The notes under the pieces were generated by a model. That model did no database searches, was not told where the DNA came from, and saw nothing but the letters and a program-made list of their open reading frames with translations. The position numbers and the translations under genes were made by a program. Positions 17,866 to 28,359 of a DNA stretch of 40,895 bases are shown here, piece after piece. The first letter of the stretch is position 1, and the number at the start of each line of letters is the position of its first letter. The stretch is from the IMG/VR virus record IMGVR_UViG_3300025159_000113, positions 1 to 40,895 of that record; one strand, written 5' to 3'. Source of the stretch: a virus.

Positions 17866-18102
17866 ATGGTGACACCAAAAGGAAATAACATATTAGTAAC
17901 GTTAATCGAAGAAAATGTAAACACTTCGTTGATCATTCCTGAAACGGCAACAAAGAAAGACTTGCAGTGGGGCGTGTGTGTAAAAGGCAACGAAGAAGTA
18001 AAAACAGATTCAATGGTGCTATTCAACACAAAGGGGTGCTTTAGTAAAGATGGTAATTACATTGTAGGTACAAACAAAATACTTTATTGGCATGAACAAT
18101 AG
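17866..18102 (+). CDS. GroES-like co-chaperonin domain protein 1, 78 aa
   Basis: One Cpn10-type barrel: VTPKGNNILVTLIEE (first strands), a short mobile-loop position NTSLIIPETA, WGVCVKGNEEVKTDSMVLFNTKG (the G-x-V, D-x-V-x-F strands), then GNYIVGTNKILYW. The hydrophobic triplet LII fits the GroEL-contact motif, but the loop is shorter than in host GroES and lacks the usual Gly-Gly. At 78 aa it is shorter than host GroES (about 95). It is first of three such genes, overlapping the next by 11 bases. The only GATC I found in the window lies in its loop codons (17931-17934). Confidence 0.72.
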   Translation: MVTPKGNNILVTLIEENVNTSLIIPETATKKDLQWGVCVKGNEEVKTDSMVLFNTKGCFSKDGNYIVGTNKILYWHEQ

Positions 18103-18787
18103 CGCAGGAGCAAAACAATCCTACACTACAGACAAGTTACCGTCACAGATGATGAACAATAACGTTCTTATCAGGATAGACTTTAATCCGATGGAAGACG
18201 TTGTGTTAGACAGTGGAATAATATTGTCAGGAGTTGGCGGTGTGATGTGGAATGAATCAGCACACGTAGCAAGGTATGGCGTGGTGACTAAAATACCAAA
18301 AGTATTAAAGACACGCCCACAGTATCATTTTAACGGCTGTATGGAGTGGAAAACAACCATAGAGATAGAAGAAGGAGATACAGTATATTTCACTAAGATA
18401 GGCTCTGCAAATGCCGTGGAACTGATTGTGGGCGGTGTGTTGTATTACATAATGAACTACTCAGACTTGGTGTTTACAAAGCGTGGAAACAAAATGATAC
18501 CGTTAAACGGATATTGTTTAGTAGAAAAGGTGATGAAAGAAAGTGTGCAATCGAGCATAATAAAAACTTTGGATGCAGAGCAGGATAAGAGGTTGGGTGT
18601 GGTCGTGGTGAATGGAACAAATACAGAATACCACTACGGTTCAAAGCTGTATGATGCAGACGTGGAAGTAGGCGATGAAGTTGTGTTTGATGGTGGCTTT
18701 TGGACAGCGATAGAATACAGCCTGTTTAAGACGATAGATAGGGAATTGGGGTTTGTGCAGAAAATATTTATAGTGGGTGTGTTATGA
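18092..18787 (+). CDS. Double GroES-like protein, 231 aa
   Basis: Two consecutive Cpn10-like domains. Domain 1, about residues 20-130: NNNVLIRIDFNPMEDVVLDSGIILSG, ARYGVVTKIPK, EEGDTVYFTKIG, LYYIMNYSDLVFTK. Domain 2, about 133-228: MIPLNGYCLVEKVMKESVQSSIIKT, RLGVVVVNG, VEVGDEVVFDGG, and a final FVQKIFIV strand. Both keep the mobile-loop triplet (GIIL and SSII). Tandem domains in a co-chaperonin are known in chloroplast Cpn20 but I do not recall them in phages. It is coupled by overlap to both neighbours. I infer heptamer-like or mixed rings that redirect host GroEL toward phage proteins. Confidence 0.68.
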   Translation: MNNSAGAKQSYTTDKLPSQMMNNNVLIRIDFNPMEDVVLDSGIILSGVGGVMWNESAHVARYGVVTKIPKVLKTRPQYHFNGCMEWKTTIEIEEGDTVYFTKIGSANAVELIVGGVLYYIMNYSDLVFTKRGNKMIPLNGYCLVEKVMKESVQSSIIKTLDAEQDKRLGVVVVNGTNTEYHYGSKLYDADVEVGDEVVFDGGFWTAIEYSLFKTIDRELGFVQKIFIVGVL

Positions 18788-19029
18788 AAGGAAAAGTACC
18801 AAAAGGAAAGATACTTGTAAAGAGAATAGACAAGTTAACAAAGACTGCGGGTGGTGTGATAATACCCAATGCAGTAGAAGAAAGACAGAAGCGTGGTGAG
18901 GTGGTTATCGGTGGTGATGAAGTGTGTGTAGGAGATAGCGTAATCTTCACCACAAGGGGAACAGAGATAGAACTTGACGGAAGTAAATATTTGGTGATAG
19001 GGGAGAGGGAGGTGTTATACATAGAATAA
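18784..19029 (+). CDS. GroES-like co-chaperonin, 81 aa
   Basis: The clearest of the three: GKILVKRIDKLTKTAGGVIIPNAVEERQKRGEVV holds the first strands and a canonical mobile loop (KTAGGVIIP), followed by VCVGDSVIFTTRGTEIELDGSKYLVIGEREVLYIE. In host GroES the corresponding segments are the loop with G-G-I-V-L, the G-D-x-V-x-F strand and the final V-L-A strand. It is 81 aa against about 95, close to T4 gp31-type minimal proteins. It starts in an ATGA overlap with the double-domain gene and is followed by an intrinsic terminator, so the cluster is one transcription unit. Confidence 0.85.
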   Translation: MKGKVPKGKILVKRIDKLTKTAGGVIIPNAVEERQKRGEVVIGGDEVCVGDSVIFTTRGTEIELDGSKYLVIGEREVLYIE

Positions 19030-19051: not shown

Positions 19052-19082
19052 AAGCTGTATCATTCGTGGTGCAGCTTTTTTT
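19052..19082 (+). terminator. Intrinsic terminator after the co-chaperonin cluster
   Basis: AAGCTG (19052-19057) and CAGCTT (19072-19077) with a 14-base loop, then a T run to 19082. It ends the rightward early block just before the structural-module promoter. Confidence 0.75.
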
Positions 19083-19128: not shown

Positions 19129-19845
19129 ATGGATAGAGACATAAAATCACTTGACTGTTCAAAAATGTCTATTCACCCGAACTCACCACAGCTTGTGACG
19201 TTCTTGGAGAAAGAGATACCACAGTTAAAAATATTTACAGATTTCAAGGAAAAGACGTTCACCAAGTCGCAGGTGCTACGTTATATAGTATTAATGTACG
19301 ACCCGAACTCACCCATTCATCAAATGAACTCACTTGACTATTGGGGACAGAAATGGGAAGCGGCTGCGTATGCAGGATTTCCACAGACAAAGTCAAAGCA
19401 TGACGGGCAACAGAGGTTTGACGAGCGTGTGGTACAGATGGTGTTAGGAAAAAATAAAGACGTATTAGACATGATACTTCTTTATACAAAGTGGACAAAC
19501 AAAAAAGATTGGGACTACCTTGTGTATCTACAAGAGGCTATGGCAGGACACGTGCTGAGTGCTATGAAAGAAAAGCAGGACATTAAGTCAATCAAGGAGG
19601 TGAACACTTTGTGGCGTGAGAAAAATGCTATCGAAAAGAAAATGTCAAATCAGGCAGTACCGGAGACAGAGGATTTTGTGTCGAGATTCTATTATCAGAT
19701 TGAGCAGTCGAGACTCGCCATTAGACCGGAGGACTATGCTCACGCACTTGCCGATGGCGATGACTTAAGACTAGATTGCCCTTATGGGGTGAATTTTACT
19801 ATACAACAGCTTAGATTTGTAGGAGATAAATTGCCTGATGAGTAA
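19129..19845 (+). CDS. Possible small terminase subunit, 238 aa
   Basis: The protein precedes the large terminase and overlaps it by eight bases, the usual place of the small subunit that recognises the packaging site. I see no clear DNA-binding motif; it is mostly helical, with KSQVLRYIVLMYDPNSPI near the N-terminus and a charged helix (DIKSIKEVNTLWREKNAIEKKM) in the middle that could oligomerise. The position is the main evidence; another head-assembly protein is possible. The ATG at 19129 follows a good promoter. Confidence 0.5.
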   Translation: MDRDIKSLDCSKMSIHPNSPQLVTFLEKEIPQLKIFTDFKEKTFTKSQVLRYIVLMYDPNSPIHQMNSLDYWGQKWEAAAYAGFPQTKSKHDGQQRFDERVVQMVLGKNKDVLDMILLYTKWTNKKDWDYLVYLQEAMAGHVLSAMKEKQDIKSIKEVNTLWREKNAIEKKMSNQAVPETEDFVSRFYYQIEQSRLAIRPEDYAHALADGDDLRLDCPYGVNFTIQQLRFVGDKLPDE

Positions 19846-22800
19846 TCTAAAGGACTATATACCCGCTGACAAGTACGTGGTGTTAAATGATAATGACCCC
19901 GACTTGCGACCAATCGTGTTGAAACTACCCGAACCACCACCGTTGAAATACATTGATGGGTACGGTGATTATTACAAAGACCAACGATTTAAGAGATTGG
20001 AAGTGCCAAGAAGATTAATTGACTTGGAAGAAGAAGCGGTACAATCCGTTAAAGAGGAATTGGCTACCAATAAGAACAATGTTGTAACACTACTAAAAAT
20101 TCAGAAGAAGTTTTGGGAAATGCTTACCGAAAGGAATAAGGATTTTAAAAACGAAATAAATTTCATAAGAAAATTTTGGTGGCATAGAATGAATGGATAT
20201 TGGTTTTACAATATGGGTAAACCAACATACATTACAGGAAAGCACTTCTTTTATTTGAACGTGTGGAGAATGGATACCAACGAGGGTGAAGACAGACCCG
20301 GATATAGAGATAGAGATAGAAAAGAGTATCTGTTTGTTGATTATTGCTATACGTCAAACGAAACATTTGAAAAGATAGACAAAGACGGATTTGCCGTACC
20401 TAATGAAGACGGAACTTATTCTATGATTAACTTAGTGGATAGGATTGGCAACAAACACGTGCCAAGAAGAATATGCTATGGAAAGCATCAGGCAAAGAAC
20501 AGGCGTTCAGGAAATACAAATAAGTCAATTAGCAATGGAGTTGAGGTAATTACAAGGACGATAGGAACAGACGGTGGTGGTATTCAAAGTTATAGTAACG
20601 ATAACGCAGAAGAACATTTTAAGATGAAACTTCTTCCATCGTTTGATAAGTTTCCTATATGGATAAAACCGTTTACGTCTTCGGGTAGAACTTCTGATTC
20701 ACTAAAATTCGATGTAGGCAAAAACGAATACGCAGTTGATTCCTTACAAACAAAATTTGTGTATGCAACAACGGCATCAGAGAAGTATTTCGATGGTAAA
20801 AAGATGACATACCTACTTGTTGACGAAGCCGGAAAATGTTTTGGAAAAGGAACGGAAATAAGAATGTTTGATGGTTCTGTAAAGAATGTTGAAGATATAC
20901 GAGTTGGGGATGTTTTGATGGGGGATGATTCTTTGCCGAGAAATGTTTTAAGGTTAGCACGTGGTGTTGACGAAATGTATAAGATAATTCCAAATCAGGG
21001 GAAAGAGTGGACTTGTAACAGCGAGCATATATTATGTTTGAAGTCAAGTGATGGTAATGCCATACCCGGAGTTAGAGGTGGTGATTATTTTAAGAAAACC
21101 ATAAAGGAATATCTTAAAATGAAACCAAGACACAAACTTGCATCTGTTATGTATAAGAAACCAGTCAAATACACAGAGAACAAGCACGTAGTAGAACCTT
21201 ATTTTTTGGGATTGTGGCTTGGTGATGGGTATCATGGTGGTGTTAATATTACGAATATAGACATTGAAATAATTGATTATTTAAAAGAGTTTTCATCATT
21301 AAACGATACTCAAATGGTTAGGGATGAAATAACATATCATCTATCCAGAAAATCAGAATATACATATTTTTTTAATAATGGTGTAGAAGAACTTGTGTTT
21401 TATTCAGTAGGAGAAATAGCGTCATATTTTGATACTACTATTAGTTCTATAAATTGGACTATAAAAACAAAAGACAATTATCGTGGTTACGAGATAATTA
21501 AACAAAAGAATTTTAGCTTAATAGAAGAATTAAGAAAGATAGGTGTTATAGGTAACAAACATATTCCAAAAGATTACCTTTTTGATTCAGAAGAAAACAG
21601 ACTTAGTTTATTAGCGGGATTAATTGATTCGGATGGATACGCATATACAGGCAATAGAACAGGATATGAAGTAACACAAAAAAGAAAAGTTCTTGCCGAA
21701 AATATAAGAAGACTTGCACTTGATTTGGGATTTAGTTGTTCTATGTATCCAAAGATTGCAAGAATGAAAAGAGAAGACGGAAGTGTTTATGAATGTGAGG
21801 TATTTCGTGTTTCTATATATGGACTTGATTTGTGGAGAATACCGTGTAAGGTAAACAGGAAAAGATACGAAAGAAAGCCGCATCATCCAAATACGAGAAA
21901 TCCGTTACATACAGGATTTTCGGTAGAGAGTATTGGCGTTGGTGATTATTACGGATTTGTTATAGACGGAAACAGAAGATTTTTATTGGAAGACAATACG
22001 GTAGCGCACAATACTTCCAATGTCAGTGTATTAAAACGCCATGACGTAAATAAGAACTGTTGCGCACAAGGAAATGGAAGAATCATATTTGGATACTTAG
22101 ACTATCCATCAACGAGTGATGAATTAACGGATGGTAGTTTTGATTACAGGTTCTTGGCAAATACGTCAAACTTTTATCAAAGGATAAAGTCAAGCGGACA
22201 AACATTTTCTGGACTATTTAGGTTGTTTATACCCGCAACAGAGGGTCTTGACGGGTTTATTGACAGCTATGGATTTTCGGTTAAAGATACGATATTGGAC
22301 TATCAGAGAGAAGAAGGATTCACACAGACAGCACTTGAATTTTTACAGGGCAAAAGAGACGTGTTACTTCAGCGTGGTGATTCAGAATCCATGAGAGCAT
22401 ATAGGGAAGAAAAGAAATTGTTCCCTATTAAGTATGCAGACTGTTGGTTAGGAGAAGCAGGTTCAATAGGATTTCCACTTGAAAGGATAGATGAAAGGCT
22501 TGCTGAATTAAGGAGAGAAGACAAAACAGTGCGTGGTGATTTAGTGTGGGTAAACGGGTTTGGAAGCGATGTTGAATTTGTACACGATGAAGAAAATGGT
22601 AGGTTTAGGATAAGTGAATTTCCAAGTCCTGCCGTATCTAATAAAAGAATACAGATAAGCACATATAGTTCCATAAAGGGAAAACATATTCCAATGTGGC
22701 GACCACAGTATCCAAACAAGTACGTGTTAGGGTGCGACCCGTTTAAGTTCGGAACAAAACAGGATTCACGGACAGGTGCTTCACTTGGCAAGAAAAGTAG

Positions 22801-23350
22801 GTTGTCTGACGGTGGTATAGCTATACTACTTAAATACGACCCATCAGTTGATGGCGGTAAGGAAATAAAAGATTGGGACACATATAAGTTTGTGTTGTCT
22901 TACAGACATAGACCCGCAAATTCAAATGAGTTTAACGAAGATACGTTAAAGGCAGCGATATATTTTGGGGCGATGGTGTACCCTGAAACAAACTTAGATG
23001 AAACGCTTAGATATTTTATCGAAAAAGAATATGGAGCATATCTTCTTTACGACATAGACTTAAAGACAGGAAGATACAAGGAAAAAGCGGGGTGTGATTC
23101 GTTGGAAAGGTCTAAGCAATTGCTATTCAGTAGAACAAGGGACTACCTTGAAAACAGGTGTCACGTGGAAGCATTTGCTGAATATCTACAAGAATGTAAG
23201 GAGATTACTGGAATGGAGATGATGAGACACTATGATAGGTTAACAGCACATGGTATGTGTCTAATGGGTGCAGAAACTCCATACGCAGAAGAAATGCTAA
23301 GCGATAATTCTGATTCGTATAACGCAGAGGACTATTGGAATTTTGCATAA
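19838..23350 (+). CDS. terL: Terminase large subunit interrupted by an intein, 1170 aa precursor
   Basis: ATP-driven DNA packaging motor and headful nuclease. The extein has a deviant Walker A, RRSGNTNKS (residues 222-230), and Walker B TYLLVDE (about 324-330). The intein begins right after this at C334 and ends at N725, before T726. The C-terminal nuclease domain starts near YVLGCDPFKFG and continues with LLYDIDLKTG. Without the 392-residue intein the protein is 778 aa, typical of terminases of this phage type. It overlaps the small-terminase candidate by eight bases. Splicing is required for function, because the insertion splits the ATPase active site. Confidence 0.92.
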   Translation: MSNLKDYIPADKYVVLNDNDPDLRPIVLKLPEPPPLKYIDGYGDYYKDQRFKRLEVPRRLIDLEEEAVQSVKEELATNKNNVVTLLKIQKKFWEMLTERNKDFKNEINFIRKFWWHRMNGYWFYNMGKPTYITGKHFFYLNVWRMDTNEGEDRPGYRDRDRKEYLFVDYCYTSNETFEKIDKDGFAVPNEDGTYSMINLVDRIGNKHVPRRICYGKHQAKNRRSGNTNKSISNGVEVITRTIGTDGGGIQSYSNDNAEEHFKMKLLPSFDKFPIWIKPFTSSGRTSDSLKFDVGKNEYAVDSLQTKFVYATTASEKYFDGKKMTYLLVDEAGKCFGKGTEIRMFDGSVKNVEDIRVGDVLMGDDSLPRNVLRLARGVDEMYKIIPNQGKEWTCNSEHILCLKSSDGNAIPGVRGGDYFKKTIKEYLKMKPRHKLASVMYKKPVKYTENKHVVEPYFLGLWLGDGYHGGVNITNIDIEIIDYLKEFSSLNDTQMVRDEITYHLSRKSEYTYFFNNGVEELVFYSVGEIASYFDTTISSINWTIKTKDNYRGYEIIKQKNFSLIEELRKIGVIGNKHIPKDYLFDSEENRLSLLAGLIDSDGYAYTGNRTGYEVTQKRKVLAENIRRLALDLGFSCSMYPKIARMKREDGSVYECEVFRVSIYGLDLWRIPCKVNRKRYERKPHHPNTRNPLHTGFSVESIGVGDYYGFVIDGNRRFLLEDNTVAHNTSNVSVLKRHDVNKNCCAQGNGRIIFGYLDYPSTSDELTDGSFDYRFLANTSNFYQRIKSSGQTFSGLFRLFIPATEGLDGFIDSYGFSVKDTILDYQREEGFTQTALEFLQGKRDVLLQRGDSESMRAYREEKKLFPIKYADCWLGEAGSIGFPLERIDERLAELRREDKTVRGDLVWVNGFGSDVEFVHDEENGRFRISEFPSPAVSNKRIQISTYSSIKGKHIPMWRPQYPNKYVLGCDPFKFGTKQDSRTGASLGKKSRLSDGGIAILLKYDPSVDGGKEIKDWDTYKFVLSYRHRPANSNEFNEDTLKAAIYFGAMVYPETNLDETLRYFIEKEYGAYLLYDIDLKTGRYKEKAGCDSLERSKQLLFSRTRDYLENRCHVEAFAEYLQECKEITGMEMMRHYDRLTAHGMCLMGAETPYAEEMLSDNSDSYNAEDYWNFA
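20837..22012 (+). mobile_element. Intein with LAGLIDADG homing endonuclease in terL
   Basis: A 392-residue intein. Block A is CFGKGTEIRMFDGSVKNVEDIRVGD with the catalytic first Cys; block B is TCNSEHILCL (TxxH). The endonuclease insert has two dodecapeptide motifs, LGLWLGDG (near 21204) and LLAGLIDSDG (near 21610). Block F is YYGFVIDGNRRFLLEDN and block G is VAHN, with Thr as the first C-extein residue. All splicing residues appear intact (C1, TxxH, H-N, +1 Thr), so it is probably active both in splicing and homing. Confidence 0.92.
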
Positions 23351-23407: not shown

Positions 23408-25819
23408 ATGATTTACAAAGGCGATGAATATTCTAAGGGCAAAAAGTACGTTATGCCCAACCGTGATAACGACCAGATAAGTCCTGCCGAAAAGGATAAA
23501 CCCGCATACAATCTACAAATGGCACAAGCTATTTATAAAGAGTTTTGCAGGGGTGGAACATACGTTGATTATGCGTCCTATTCGGATGTGGATATTAACA
23601 GGAGTTATGCACACGGAAATCAGCCACAGAGTATTTACGAAAACGCCTATTACGGAACAGACAACACAAGCACCGTGTCTGAAAAGATAGACGATGCAGC
23701 CGTAAAAAACAAGAAAAGAAAAGCGGGTGATAACCTGAATTTCACAATACAATCACCCGCACCGAAGATGATGGATTCGCTTATAGGCAAACTGTCAGAA
23801 CTGATAAACATGGTATCCGTTGACCCGACAGACAAGTATAGCGGTGCAGTAAAGGAAACAGCAAAGTGGGGGGCGTGGGCAGACAAACAATATCGGAATG
23901 AACTAAACACGCTAAAAGCCTTAATGGTGCTTCCACAACAGGAACAAGGATTCGTGCCTGAAAACCTTGAAGAACTGAATCTGTACGAAGCAGAGGGTGG
24001 TTTTAAACCGTCCTACGCAACAGTAATGGAGCAACTGCTGAAGTATGCCTTTGAGCAGTCAGCATGGGATGAGGTGATAGTAGAAAAGGTACTTGCAGAT
24101 TTGGTAACAGTAGGATTTGCAGCAGTCAGGGACGTGTATAATCCAATTACAGGACAAACCAAAGTAGAATACATAAATGCTAAGACAGCGGGTGTGCAAT
24201 ATGTAGATGAAGAATCATACAGAAATCCCGACTATGGATTCTTTATTAAATTAGTAAAGCTGTCAGATTTAAAACAAAAAGGCTTTACAGAAGAAGAATT
24301 AAAAAGTGTAGCAAAGAAATTCTCAGGAGATTTTGGTAACGATAAATACGAAGACCCCAACTCAATAAACAAAGGAGCAGAATATGGCTTTGCAGAACAG
24401 ACAGACAAGTTTGTAGTACCCGTGTTCGTGGTGAATTGGATAGATGTAGATTACAAACAGGAAGTATCACACACGAACAGGTATGGAAAAAAGAGAACAA
24501 GGGAATACGATGGAAAAGCCAAGTTAGGCAAGAACGATGAATTATTAAAAACAAGAATAAAAACAGTCCGTGAGGCACATTGGATAATCGACACAGAGTT
24601 AATGTACGATTATGGCAGAATGAAGCACCAATGCAGGGACGGATTGTCAGAACCCGTGTTACCTATCCACATGGTAAAGGTATTTGGAAGACCAATCATT
24701 CCAAGACTAATCCCCGTGTTAGACTTATACATGAACAGTTGGATGAAGTTCCAACAGGGAATCAGGATGAGTACAATCAATGGGTTAGCTATTGACATGG
24801 CAATTATTAACAACATTAATTTGGGTGGCAGAAAGATGAACCCAAAGGACGTGTTAAAAGCATACAGGGAAACAGGAACATTATTCTTTAGTTCAGAAAA
24901 CACACAAGGCAGACACACGGTTCAGAACACACGCCCGATAGAAAAGTTAGATGGTGGGGCAGGTGCGGTGTTACAGGAACAGGTAACGGCAATGGATTGG
25001 GCGTTAAGACAGATAGAAGAACTGACAGGTATAAATCCTTTGTCAATGGGTTCATCACCCGATAGCGGAACAGGCAAGGCGGTGAATGAATATTCTATCA
25101 TGGGGACGAGTGATATATTAAAGAATATCGTTAAAAAAGCAAACATACTAAAATCCGATGTAGCACGAAATATGTGTCTGAGGATACAATATACCGTAAA
25201 GGATGAGAAAGTGGCTGCAAAGGCTTATGAAGACGTTGTAGGGGCATCTAATCTTGAACTGTTGCGCATAGCAGAGGGGCATGACGTGAAGTACGGAATA
25301 AGGACACACGCACGACCAACACAGAAAGACATAGCAGAGCTAAAAGAAATGATAGCACTATCATTGAAGAACGGGCGTGATGGCAAGGTAGGAATAACAG
25401 AAGCAGACTATGTTAGGTTCAATTCGATGATAAATGCGGGTGAAAGTCTAAAGAGAATAGCAATGTTACTTGGTGCAGCTAATAAAAAAGCAAAAAGAGA
25501 AGCAGAAGAAGCAGCAGCAAGGGCAAACCAACAGACCATGCAGGGTGCGCAACAGCTTGAACAAATGAAAGCACAGAACAAGCAACAGGAGTTCATGCTT
25601 AAAACACAGTCTGAAATTGCCAATGAAAAGACTAAGGGGACTAATCAAATTCTGAACGAAGCAGTCAAAAAAGGAGAGATGACAGCAATGCAGGCGTTAA
25701 TGGTACTGAACGGTGTTCCAATACCACGTGGACAGCAGCAACAGCAAGCACCACAACAGCAAGCACCGTCAGCACCCGTGAGCGAATCACCGATACCTGT
25801 TGAGGGACAGGCTATTTAA
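23408..25819 (+). CDS. Portal protein, 803 aa
   Basis: The dodecameric DNA portal at the head vertex. Evidence is position (after the terminase, before scaffold and capsid), size, and a long helical middle with KVLADLVTVGFAAVRDVYNPITGQTKVEYINAKTAGVQYVDEESYRNPDYGFFI, a pattern of portal wing domains, followed by MNSWMKFQQGIRMSTINGLAIDM and a long helical C-terminal region. The last 100 residues are Q/A-rich (with QQQQQAPQQQAPSAP) and probably disordered; the DNA there holds a 14-base direct repeat. Large portals of this size occur in crAss-like and related podoviruses. Confidence 0.8.
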   Translation: MIYKGDEYSKGKKYVMPNRDNDQISPAEKDKPAYNLQMAQAIYKEFCRGGTYVDYASYSDVDINRSYAHGNQPQSIYENAYYGTDNTSTVSEKIDDAAVKNKKRKAGDNLNFTIQSPAPKMMDSLIGKLSELINMVSVDPTDKYSGAVKETAKWGAWADKQYRNELNTLKALMVLPQQEQGFVPENLEELNLYEAEGGFKPSYATVMEQLLKYAFEQSAWDEVIVEKVLADLVTVGFAAVRDVYNPITGQTKVEYINAKTAGVQYVDEESYRNPDYGFFIKLVKLSDLKQKGFTEEELKSVAKKFSGDFGNDKYEDPNSINKGAEYGFAEQTDKFVVPVFVVNWIDVDYKQEVSHTNRYGKKRTREYDGKAKLGKNDELLKTRIKTVREAHWIIDTELMYDYGRMKHQCRDGLSEPVLPIHMVKVFGRPIIPRLIPVLDLYMNSWMKFQQGIRMSTINGLAIDMAIINNINLGGRKMNPKDVLKAYRETGTLFFSSENTQGRHTVQNTRPIEKLDGGAGAVLQEQVTAMDWALRQIEELTGINPLSMGSSPDSGTGKAVNEYSIMGTSDILKNIVKKANILKSDVARNMCLRIQYTVKDEKVAAKAYEDVVGASNLELLRIAEGHDVKYGIRTHARPTQKDIAELKEMIALSLKNGRDGKVGITEADYVRFNSMINAGESLKRIAMLLGAANKKAKREAEEAAARANQQTMQGAQQLEQMKAQNKQQEFMLKTQSEIANEKTKGTNQILNEAVKKGEMTAMQALMVLNGVPIPRGQQQQQAPQQQAPSAPVSESPIPVEGQAI

Positions 25820-26949: not shown

Positions 26950-28359
26950 ATGGCTTATAGAGAGAGTACATCACAAGCAGGGTGGGCAGGGCAACTTGTA
27001 ACCACTTGGGATGTTGCATTTGAAGAACAAGCCTTCGCAGAATTGCAAAGCAGATATGGCGATGGCTTTAAGGTGTTGAACTTCCTCAACATGGCGGGAG
27101 CAGAAATGAATGTTGGCAGCAACAACATTACTATCTTGGAAGAATCAGTACCAGAACGTCCGGTAACTGTAACAGTGGCACAGGCATTGTCAGCACCGAT
27201 AGACCCCGTACTTACATTCTCATCTGCTGATAACAGCGATGACTATGTGCGTGAAGGAATGTCGTTATTGATTCCTGCGCAGTATGTAACAGGACAGGAT
27301 TATGATTTAGAGTTGCGTATTTGGGACGACAACGGAACATGGAAAGGTAAATCTTTCAGCTTAACAGCAACAATCGACACAGCTATTACTTCAAAAGAAC
27401 TTATTCTGACAGCAAGTTCTTACGGTGAAGGAGCAGACGGTATTGACCCGATGACAGGTGGTTTGTATGAAAGAAACACCAACGGTCGTATTTTGAAAGA
27501 ATCGTGTGCTATCGAAGGAGGTCGTGTGTTTGAACAAGTATTCCAAGCAGTAAAAACTAAATACGGTACAAATGCCTTATTTAGCAAAGAACAGATGGAT
27601 GCAACATTCCGTTTGGATTCACAGAAAGACGCTTTCCTTTTAACAGGTAACGCCAACACCAACGTAGCAAACTTAAAAACAGTTTCTATCACAGGTGGAA
27701 GCAACGTAGTACGTTCAACAAAAGGTTTAGTGCCTATTATGAAAGAGTTGGCACAGGAATTAACTTGGACAACCGACTTCGACATGGACAAATTCAAAGC
27801 CGTAAAAGGTTATTTGGAAGCAGTAGGTGTTATGAACCGTGAAGTTGACTTCTTGGGAGGCACAGACCTTATTCAGTCTATTGAAGATGCAAATATTGAG
27901 TGGCTGGCAGCTAATTCAACAGGACATTCGTTATACGAAACAATGCGTTCAGTTGGGTTCTATGCAAAAGAAGTTAATATCACTGGTATTAAATTCAATT
28001 TGATGGAGCTTAGCTCATTCTCAAATCCGAATAAATTTGGTGCTTCTGAATACGGATACAGAAACATGGGATTCCTTATGCCAAAAGGTATGCACAACGT
28101 AACCATGAGTGGTCATGGAAGTCCTGATGAAAAAATGAAACTTCCACACTTAACATTAGGTTATGCTGTTAATCAGGGTGAAAACCGCAGATATACAGTA
28201 ACCAGCGTGAAAGGTAATATTGACTTCCCGTCAGGAAGTGCAGCAGCAAACTCTTTTGATGGTGTTAAATTCGACTTCAAAACACACATTGTACCTATTT
28301 TCAATAATATCCACAAGACCATATTAGTAACCCAAGACCTCTCAGGTGGAGGTGCATAA
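26950..28359 (+). CDS. Major capsid protein, 469 aa
   Basis: Expected HK97-fold shell protein. The call rests on position after the scaffold, size, and codon use: this gene uses more C-ending codons (AAC, TTC, GGT) than its neighbours, as highly expressed genes do. It begins MAYRESTSQAGWAGQLVTTWD and contains an axial/E-loop-like beta-rich region followed by FLGGTDLIQSIEDANIEWLA, a likely spine helix. No cleavage site is obvious. It would be the natural client of the co-chaperonin-like proteins upstream. Confidence 0.8.
   Translation: MAYRESTSQAGWAGQLVTTWDVAFEEQAFAELQSRYGDGFKVLNFLNMAGAEMNVGSNNITILEESVPERPVTVTVAQALSAPIDPVLTFSSADNSDDYVREGMSLLIPAQYVTGQDYDLELRIWDDNGTWKGKSFSLTATIDTAITSKELILTASSYGEGADGIDPMTGGLYERNTNGRILKESCAIEGGRVFEQVFQAVKTKYGTNALFSKEQMDATFRLDSQKDAFLLTGNANTNVANLKTVSITGGSNVVRSTKGLVPIMKELAQELTWTTDFDMDKFKAVKGYLEAVGVMNREVDFLGGTDLIQSIEDANIEWLAANSTGHSLYETMRSVGFYAKEVNITGIKFNLMELSSFSNPNKFGASEYGYRNMGFLMPKGMHNVTMSGHGSPDEKMKLPHLTLGYAVNQGENRRYTVTSVKGNIDFPSGSAAANSFDGVKFDFKTHIVPIFNNIHKTILVTQDLSGGGA

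Follow-up and report, generated by a model that had tools for sequence, protein, structure and literature searches.

What a phage would gain from three adjacent genes that together specify four domains of the GroES (Cpn10) type is the question posed by a short locus in the window, by which we mean the whole 40,895-nucleotide stretch analysed here (IMG/VR virus record IMGVR_UViG_3300025159_000113). To our knowledge, the phage lids described in print are single-domain GroES substitutes. The three open reading frames, at 17866-18102, 18092-18787 and 18784-19029 on the + strand, were found exactly where an earlier note had placed them, downstream of genes for a helicase and a single-strand-binding protein, and the features to which we refer are as follows:

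17866..18102, + strand: P0001, 78-aa Cpn10-like single, loop TSLIIPE, no roof loop (by likeness to P0003 and predicted model)
18092..18787, + strand: P0002, 231-aa double Cpn10 protein (Pfam 36.1 bits, two stretches)
18784..19029, + strand: P0003, 81-aa single Cpn10, loop GGVIIP, no roof loop (Pfam 46.8 bits)
19052-19077, + strand: intrinsic terminator behind the three genes (11-pair stem and T run)
19129..19845, + strand: 238-aa protein between array and terminase (position only)
19838..23350, + strand: large terminase subunit with an intein at about residues 334-737 (phrog_6681, E 4.5e-56)
23408..25819, + strand: portal protein (phrog_6547, E 6.6e-40)

We read the array, as the earlier note did, as four Cpn10-type domains in three genes with a two-domain gene in the middle, an assignment that is firm for two of the genes and good for that of the 78-aa protein. 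Against a curated cut-off of 21.1 bits, the Pfam Cpn10 family (PF00166) scores the 81-aa protein at 46.8 bits, the 231-aa protein at 36.1 bits over two stretches and the 78-aa protein at 14.2 bits; profile searches, proposed earlier as a check on the last two, thus recover the double and leave the 78-aa protein below the cut-off (E 0.045 for 24,736 families, with Cpn10 the sole family listed). A six-frame search of the whole window with the Pfam model finds Cpn10 in two places, 18808-19017 and 18494-18697, and when the window's 395 stop-to-stop frames (minimum length 40 aa) were searched with a profile built from six phage GroES proteins, one of them the 81-aa protein, just three were listed at E <=10, namely these three genes. 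Together these searches rule out chance or a wrong frame as the origin of the array.

The Cpn10 assignment of the 81-aa protein is made by sequence only, with phmmer matches in the PDB to Cpn20 (1.2e-12) and GroES (5.8e-12); tblastn finds it in 144 records of the phage collection, all below 60% identity, the best row being 38%. The 78-aa and 81-aa proteins share 33% identity (E 4e-7; 29.6 bits, where the best of 5000 shuffles reaches 22.3 bits). When the 81-aa protein is left out of the phage GroES profile, the 78-aa protein drops to fifth rank, with two unrelated frames ahead of it (5.9 bits, E 0.36), while shuffles of it reach 10.1 bits; because this profile misses it, its assignment rests on Pfam, on the likeness to the 81-aa protein and on a predicted model (pLDDT 82.7, pTM 0.72), the fold of which was partly fed in by an alignment of 10 rows including Cpn10 proteins. 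Foldseek places 1p3h_B first for this model (E 2.8e-3, probability 1.00), followed by GroES, gp31 and 7ekq_Q, and VIA gives Z 9.3 to 1p3h_A (rmsd 4.5, 72 residues) and Z 8.3 to GroES 3nx6. We accordingly describe the protein as probably Cpn10-like, from its likeness to its neighbour and its predicted fold, rather than as a Pfam member.

For the 231-aa protein the Pfam match, the profile and a low-confidence model (pLDDT 56.7, from a 25-row alignment) agree on two Cpn10 domains joined head-to-tail. The phage GroES profile reaches it at E 2.6e-5 through residues 91-128 and 151-200, each of which is weak alone (0.095 and 0.058). Foldseek ranks 7ekq_R, a Cpn20, first for the model (E 0.048, probability 0.75), a GroES second and 7ekq_Q, chaperonin 23, third (E 0.28, probability 0.28), the two 7ekq matches spanning 194-205 columns; in VIA, 7ekq_R has Z 6.5 (rmsd 5.4) over 155 residues across both domains, and the first domain alone Z 5.0-5.6 to the best Cpn10s. 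Such Z values could by themselves be reached by common arrangements, and they agree with the sequence matches. The structures ranking below the Cpn10s are mostly dehydrogenases, plus DegP; the first domain of these dehydrogenases is itself GroES-like. The expectation that structure models of the 78-aa and 231-aa proteins would match Cpn10 folds is thus borne out, at low confidence for the larger protein. With the double as query, tblastn in the phage collection returned no match.

The arrangement itself appears sound. Genes 2 and 3 overlap by 4 bases as had been described; the 11-base overlap of genes 1 and 2 exists only if gene 2 starts at 18092, and its true start may be at M20 or M21 (18149, 18152), giving a protein of about 211 aa and no overlap, since the doubles of relatives begin at the first strand. 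The terminator that had been said to close the array holds by pattern and by folding (-15.4 kcal/mol, compared with -7.25 for shuffled sequences; z -3.69). Three further contigs agree, which makes an assembly slip unlikely: the 81-aa and double genes are 100% identical in them, and the 78-aa gene is also in place there. When the double, the portal and the 81-aa protein were searched against viral_contigs, these identical contigs were the only close relatives. In a tree of 37 domains, which has long branches and took in 10 of 28 split doubles (28 of 29 could be split), the 81-aa protein groups with two phage single GroES proteins, while the 78-aa protein and each half of the double stand apart on long branches; on such a tree, duplication of one domain is no more than a possible origin of the array.

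We then looked at more distant phages. A tblastn search with the portal found 84 phage records, all below 60% identity, including phages of Cellulophaga, Tenacibaculum, Maribacter and Flavobacterium; the named relatives infect Flavobacteriia, and the six that we read are 60-79 kb long. In five of these six (phi46:3, Calle_1, Panino, MW202828 and an elemo phage) a double of 180-200 aa lies upstream of the terminase, matches phrog_13932 'co-chaperonin GroES' and is annotated as co-chaperonin GroES or hypothetical; Pfam Cpn10 was found in two of the five. The contrast case is the complete Tenacibaculum phage Gundel_1, in which neither a Cpn10 nor a double at the terminase was found. A scan seeded with the five named doubles gave at least 575 confirmed relatives, of which 80 loci were kept; 78 of the resulting 85 doubles (these 80 plus the five named) have the terminase downstream, and for the other 7 the contig ends no more than 2.4 kb away. 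A scan seeded with the terminase, which counters the start from the double, kept 80 loci of at least 545 confirmed, of which 26 were too short to tell, their sequence reaching at most about 0.5 kb beyond the terminase on the upstream side; in all 54 testable loci the double is upstream, 5 of these doubles being cut by the contig end. Some bias remains, because Gundel_1 was not among the sources of the terminase profile, which was made from the window and the five phages with a double. With this reservation, phages related to that of the window commonly carry a double-Cpn10 gene immediately before the large terminase; the window phage itself represents a deep branch, because its terminase is only 24-30% identical to the 80 kept terminases. 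Among bacterial genomes, 10 loci of the double family were found, all in records titled MAG and under mixed organism names, and we read them as putative phage contigs in bins.

The window differs from these relatives in the company its double keeps. Two genes stand there between the double and the terminase, and two single Cpn10 genes flank the double, whereas the upstream neighbour in relatives is mostly an unrelated small protein. No single Cpn10 was found beside the double around the 85 doubles or in the 54 testable terminase loci, and singles in relatives' loci, where seen, lie about 2.6 to 7.4 kb upstream of it; over 3,955 open reading frames of 106 loci, the phage GroES profile listed only single GroES proteins, doubles and the 78-aa protein. 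The three-gene order, for which the earlier note had suggested looking in related phages, was hence not seen there, and single-double-single occurs in no other phage among those examined. The same note knew of no described phage with such a set, a view supported in part: it agrees with what was seen for this order, but the five double-bearing named relatives each also carry a single GroES elsewhere and so have three domains.

Several observations concern the neighbours of the doubles and of the array. In many relatives a small protein (IRKIS-G-DYKN-AMHY-VGQ) is encoded directly upstream of the double (for instance at L012:4965-5177, L013:5651-5875 and L014:9376-9597), and 56 of 78 same-strand upstream neighbours are 70-79 aa long. 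We considered this gene as a counterpart of the 78-aa gene and rejected it: Cpn10 was listed for none of five such proteins, and hhalign of 47 distinct upstream neighbours of 65-90 aa against phage GroES gave a probability of 1.2%. The profile of the small protein likewise listed no window frame. In the window, the 238-aa protein has no Pfam family above cut-off (best E 0.039) and none listed in PHROGs, and to call it the small terminase subunit would be a guess. Within the terminase intein, of about 400 residues, Hom_end_hint (1.7e-23) is found together with homing endonuclease domains; relatives have genes of terminase size that encode 735-880 aa. The position of a 469-aa protein at 26950 would suit the major capsid protein; we do not claim the protein as such, its matches being one of 42 residues to that of Calle_1 (E 5e-4) and one at E 0.036 to another.

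The loops of the four domains bear on function: GroES is described as contacting GroEL through a mobile loop and as closing the dome with a roof loop (PMC4242682). Of the hydrophobic triplets that had been read in every loop of the array, LII (78-aa protein), IIL (first domain of the double) and VII (81-aa protein) are of the GroEL type; the fourth, given as SII, is not a full triplet, the loops of the double being SGIIL and SSIIK, the latter with two hydrophobic residues. Where GroES has its roof hairpin, alignments with the 81-aa protein leave a gap of 12 residues; the 78-aa protein, compared with the 81-aa one, has no extra loop at this position, and the double has, by eye, about 20 and 15 residues at the two roof-loop places. 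Among 48 distinct terminase-found doubles outside the first sample, the triplet is present in the first loop of 46 and in the second loop of 3; in the first sample the corresponding counts were 17 and 2 of 29. The two halves of the relatives' doubles thus seem to have parted in function, and half of the double may not touch GroEL, since the second loop so rarely keeps its triplet. An HHN motif after the first GD strand, for which we know of no counterpart in GroES, was considered as a hallmark of the double and given up: the first sample has it in 84 of its 85 doubles, a count partly asked for by a scan pattern containing [HD][HV]N, but in only 35 of 49 terminase-found doubles, and the double of the window lacks it as do the other 14.

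The chaperonin partner was sought in the same genomes. GroEL was found in four of ten records (Calle_1, Panino, MW202828 and the elemo phage), but neither in phi46:3 or Gundel_1 nor in the window or its three copies, which reach 53 kb at most; the window and its copies cover only part of this phage's genome, and a GroEL gene may lie beyond the sequence available. Fifteen contigs picked for holding a double include nine with GroEL, and the same nine have a single GroES over the cut-off. Every one of the 13 GroEL-bearing records has its single GroES no more than 0.6 kb away from GroEL and separate from the double. A double followed by the terminase is likewise present in each of the 13, although nine of them had been selected for containing a double. 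The complete genome of Cellulophaga phage phi46:3, with a single and a double Cpn10 and no GroEL found, offers a precedent for lids without a GroEL of their own, which would use host GroEL or act otherwise.

Known systems resemble the array in different respects. The phrog_13932 doubles of phi46:3, Calle_1, the Maribacter phage Panino and the Flavobacterium elemo phages share with the window's double two Cpn10-type halves and a place upstream of the large terminase and portal. Between them hhalign gives a weak colinear match (E 3e-4, probability 38-39%), a PHROGs search with the 231-aa protein listed the single GroES phrog_3188 alone and did not match phrog_13932, and a profile of 29 relatives' doubles listed no window frame at E <=10. 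T4 gp31 and RB49 CocO are phage-coded Cpn10 proteins, each a single-domain gene. They have little sequence likeness to the window proteins, yet gp31 shares with the window's singles the absence of a roof loop, a feature thought to help a large client (PMC6318259); gp31 is described as serving the major capsid protein together with host GroEL (PMC6318259, PMC3012670). Marine Bacteroidota phages with GroEL-GroES pairs are related phages, and two of their single GroES proteins are those that group with the 81-aa protein; unlike them, the window and its three copies yielded no GroEL. A 'chaperonin cpn10' is given among the core genes of Pervagoviridae (PMC8776804), and GroEL or GroES homologs are reported in such phages (PMC5332604, PMC11590407).

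In composition the array is much like the lids of chloroplasts, where Cpn20 and Cpn23 act with Cpn10 and Cpn11, a double with roofless singles in one system, and the chloroplast double is also the best structural match of the window's low-confidence model. Chloroplast Cpn20 is described as two Cpn10 units joined head-to-tail that mix with Cpn10, and in Arabidopsis Cpn10(1) and Cpn10(2) lack the roof loop that Cpn20 has (PMC4242682). That system is cellular and plastid-based, and mixing, demonstrated there by experiment, is for the window proteins an extrapolation.

Based on these features, we propose that the array is an operon of phage co-chaperonins that would serve as GroEL lids for head proteins, possibly in mixed rings, a reading that we hold to be about evenly balanced against all others. 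The Cpn10 proteins would cap GroEL so that large head proteins could fold during assembly: capping is suggested by the Cpn10 family and the kept first loop, head proteins as clients by the position of the array next to head genes, and the host's GroEL as partner by the failure to see a phage GroEL in the window. Given the chloroplast precedent, single and double subunits might mix in one seven-domain ring, like Cpn10 and Cpn20, and the singles, roofless like T4 gp31, would open its dome. Among the ideas raised by the earlier note, mixed rings appear plausible by analogy with chloroplasts, as does switching GroEL from one set of clients to another; for a capsid chamber made of these domains, no evidence was found. 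A more specific version, that these phages independently evolved a chloroplast-like asymmetric lid of single and double Cpn10s tuned for a bulky head client, with the double as hallmark of a large group, we put forward only tentatively as possible but on balance unlikely. Three doubles and one single would make up seven domains, and with the second loops dead four working loops would be left; GroEL reportedly needs at least four of seven (cited in PMC4242682). This count probably fits the relatives better than the window, the second loop of which is half kept.

The strongest competing explanation, which we think somewhat unlikely, is that the singles are ordinary GroES substitutes forming homo-heptamers and that the double is a Cpn10 fold reused in head assembly or packaging, without mixing. 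Such reuse would explain both the place beside the terminase and the lost second loop, which lacks the triplet in 45 of 48 doubles, and it accords with the position of the double at the terminase while the single adjoins GroEL in 13 of 13 GroEL records, as well as with the HHN motif of 35 in 49. It is harder to reconcile with the triplet kept by the first loop in 46 of 48, with the three genes of the window sitting together and their double keeping SGIIL, and with the annotation of Calle_1, in which the double is a co-chaperonin and not structural although its neighbours are virion proteins, a point of annotation only. The improved loop count and the weakened HHN motif lean towards the lid reading, and the failed match of the double profile leans the other way.

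It is also conceivable, at a rather low probability, that the lids are redundant, each protein forming a ring of its own, heptameric for the singles and tetrameric for the double, with the rings alternating or handling different clients; homo-oligomers of Arabidopsis Cpn20 and of Cpn10(2) are described as functional in vitro (PMC4242682), and Plasmodium Cpn20 alone as replacing GroES in E. coli (PMC3542282), while three adjoining genes before one terminator suggest, weakly, joint use. Quite improbable in our view is that the proteins jam host GroEL or act as caps or blockers on a different ring machine, in the manner of the chloroplast Cpn11/20/23 complex, which is reported to bind the ClpP protease core (PMC8889267). 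The best structural match of the double, 7ekq_R, does come from an entry titled CrClpP; however, its first rank may merely reflect that 7ekq is a double of known structure, and the window holds no clue to a ring target other than GroEL.

Plastid double co-chaperonins, phage GroES and phage GroEL were already known, and in the open-licence literature we recognised no report of a double-domain phage lid, of its place at the terminase or of the three-gene set. What is new here is that a double-Cpn10 gene beside the terminase is common in related phages, and that the window carries a single-double-single array. The double-Cpn10 gene, which sits beside the terminase in a large phage group, has so far been annotated plainly as 'GroES' or left unnamed. 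Should our preferred reading of lids in mixed rings be true, these phages would offer a simple bacterial system in which to ask why chloroplasts retain both kinds of lid, double and single; if instead the double does not bind GroEL, head assembly would have put the Cpn10 fold to a new use.
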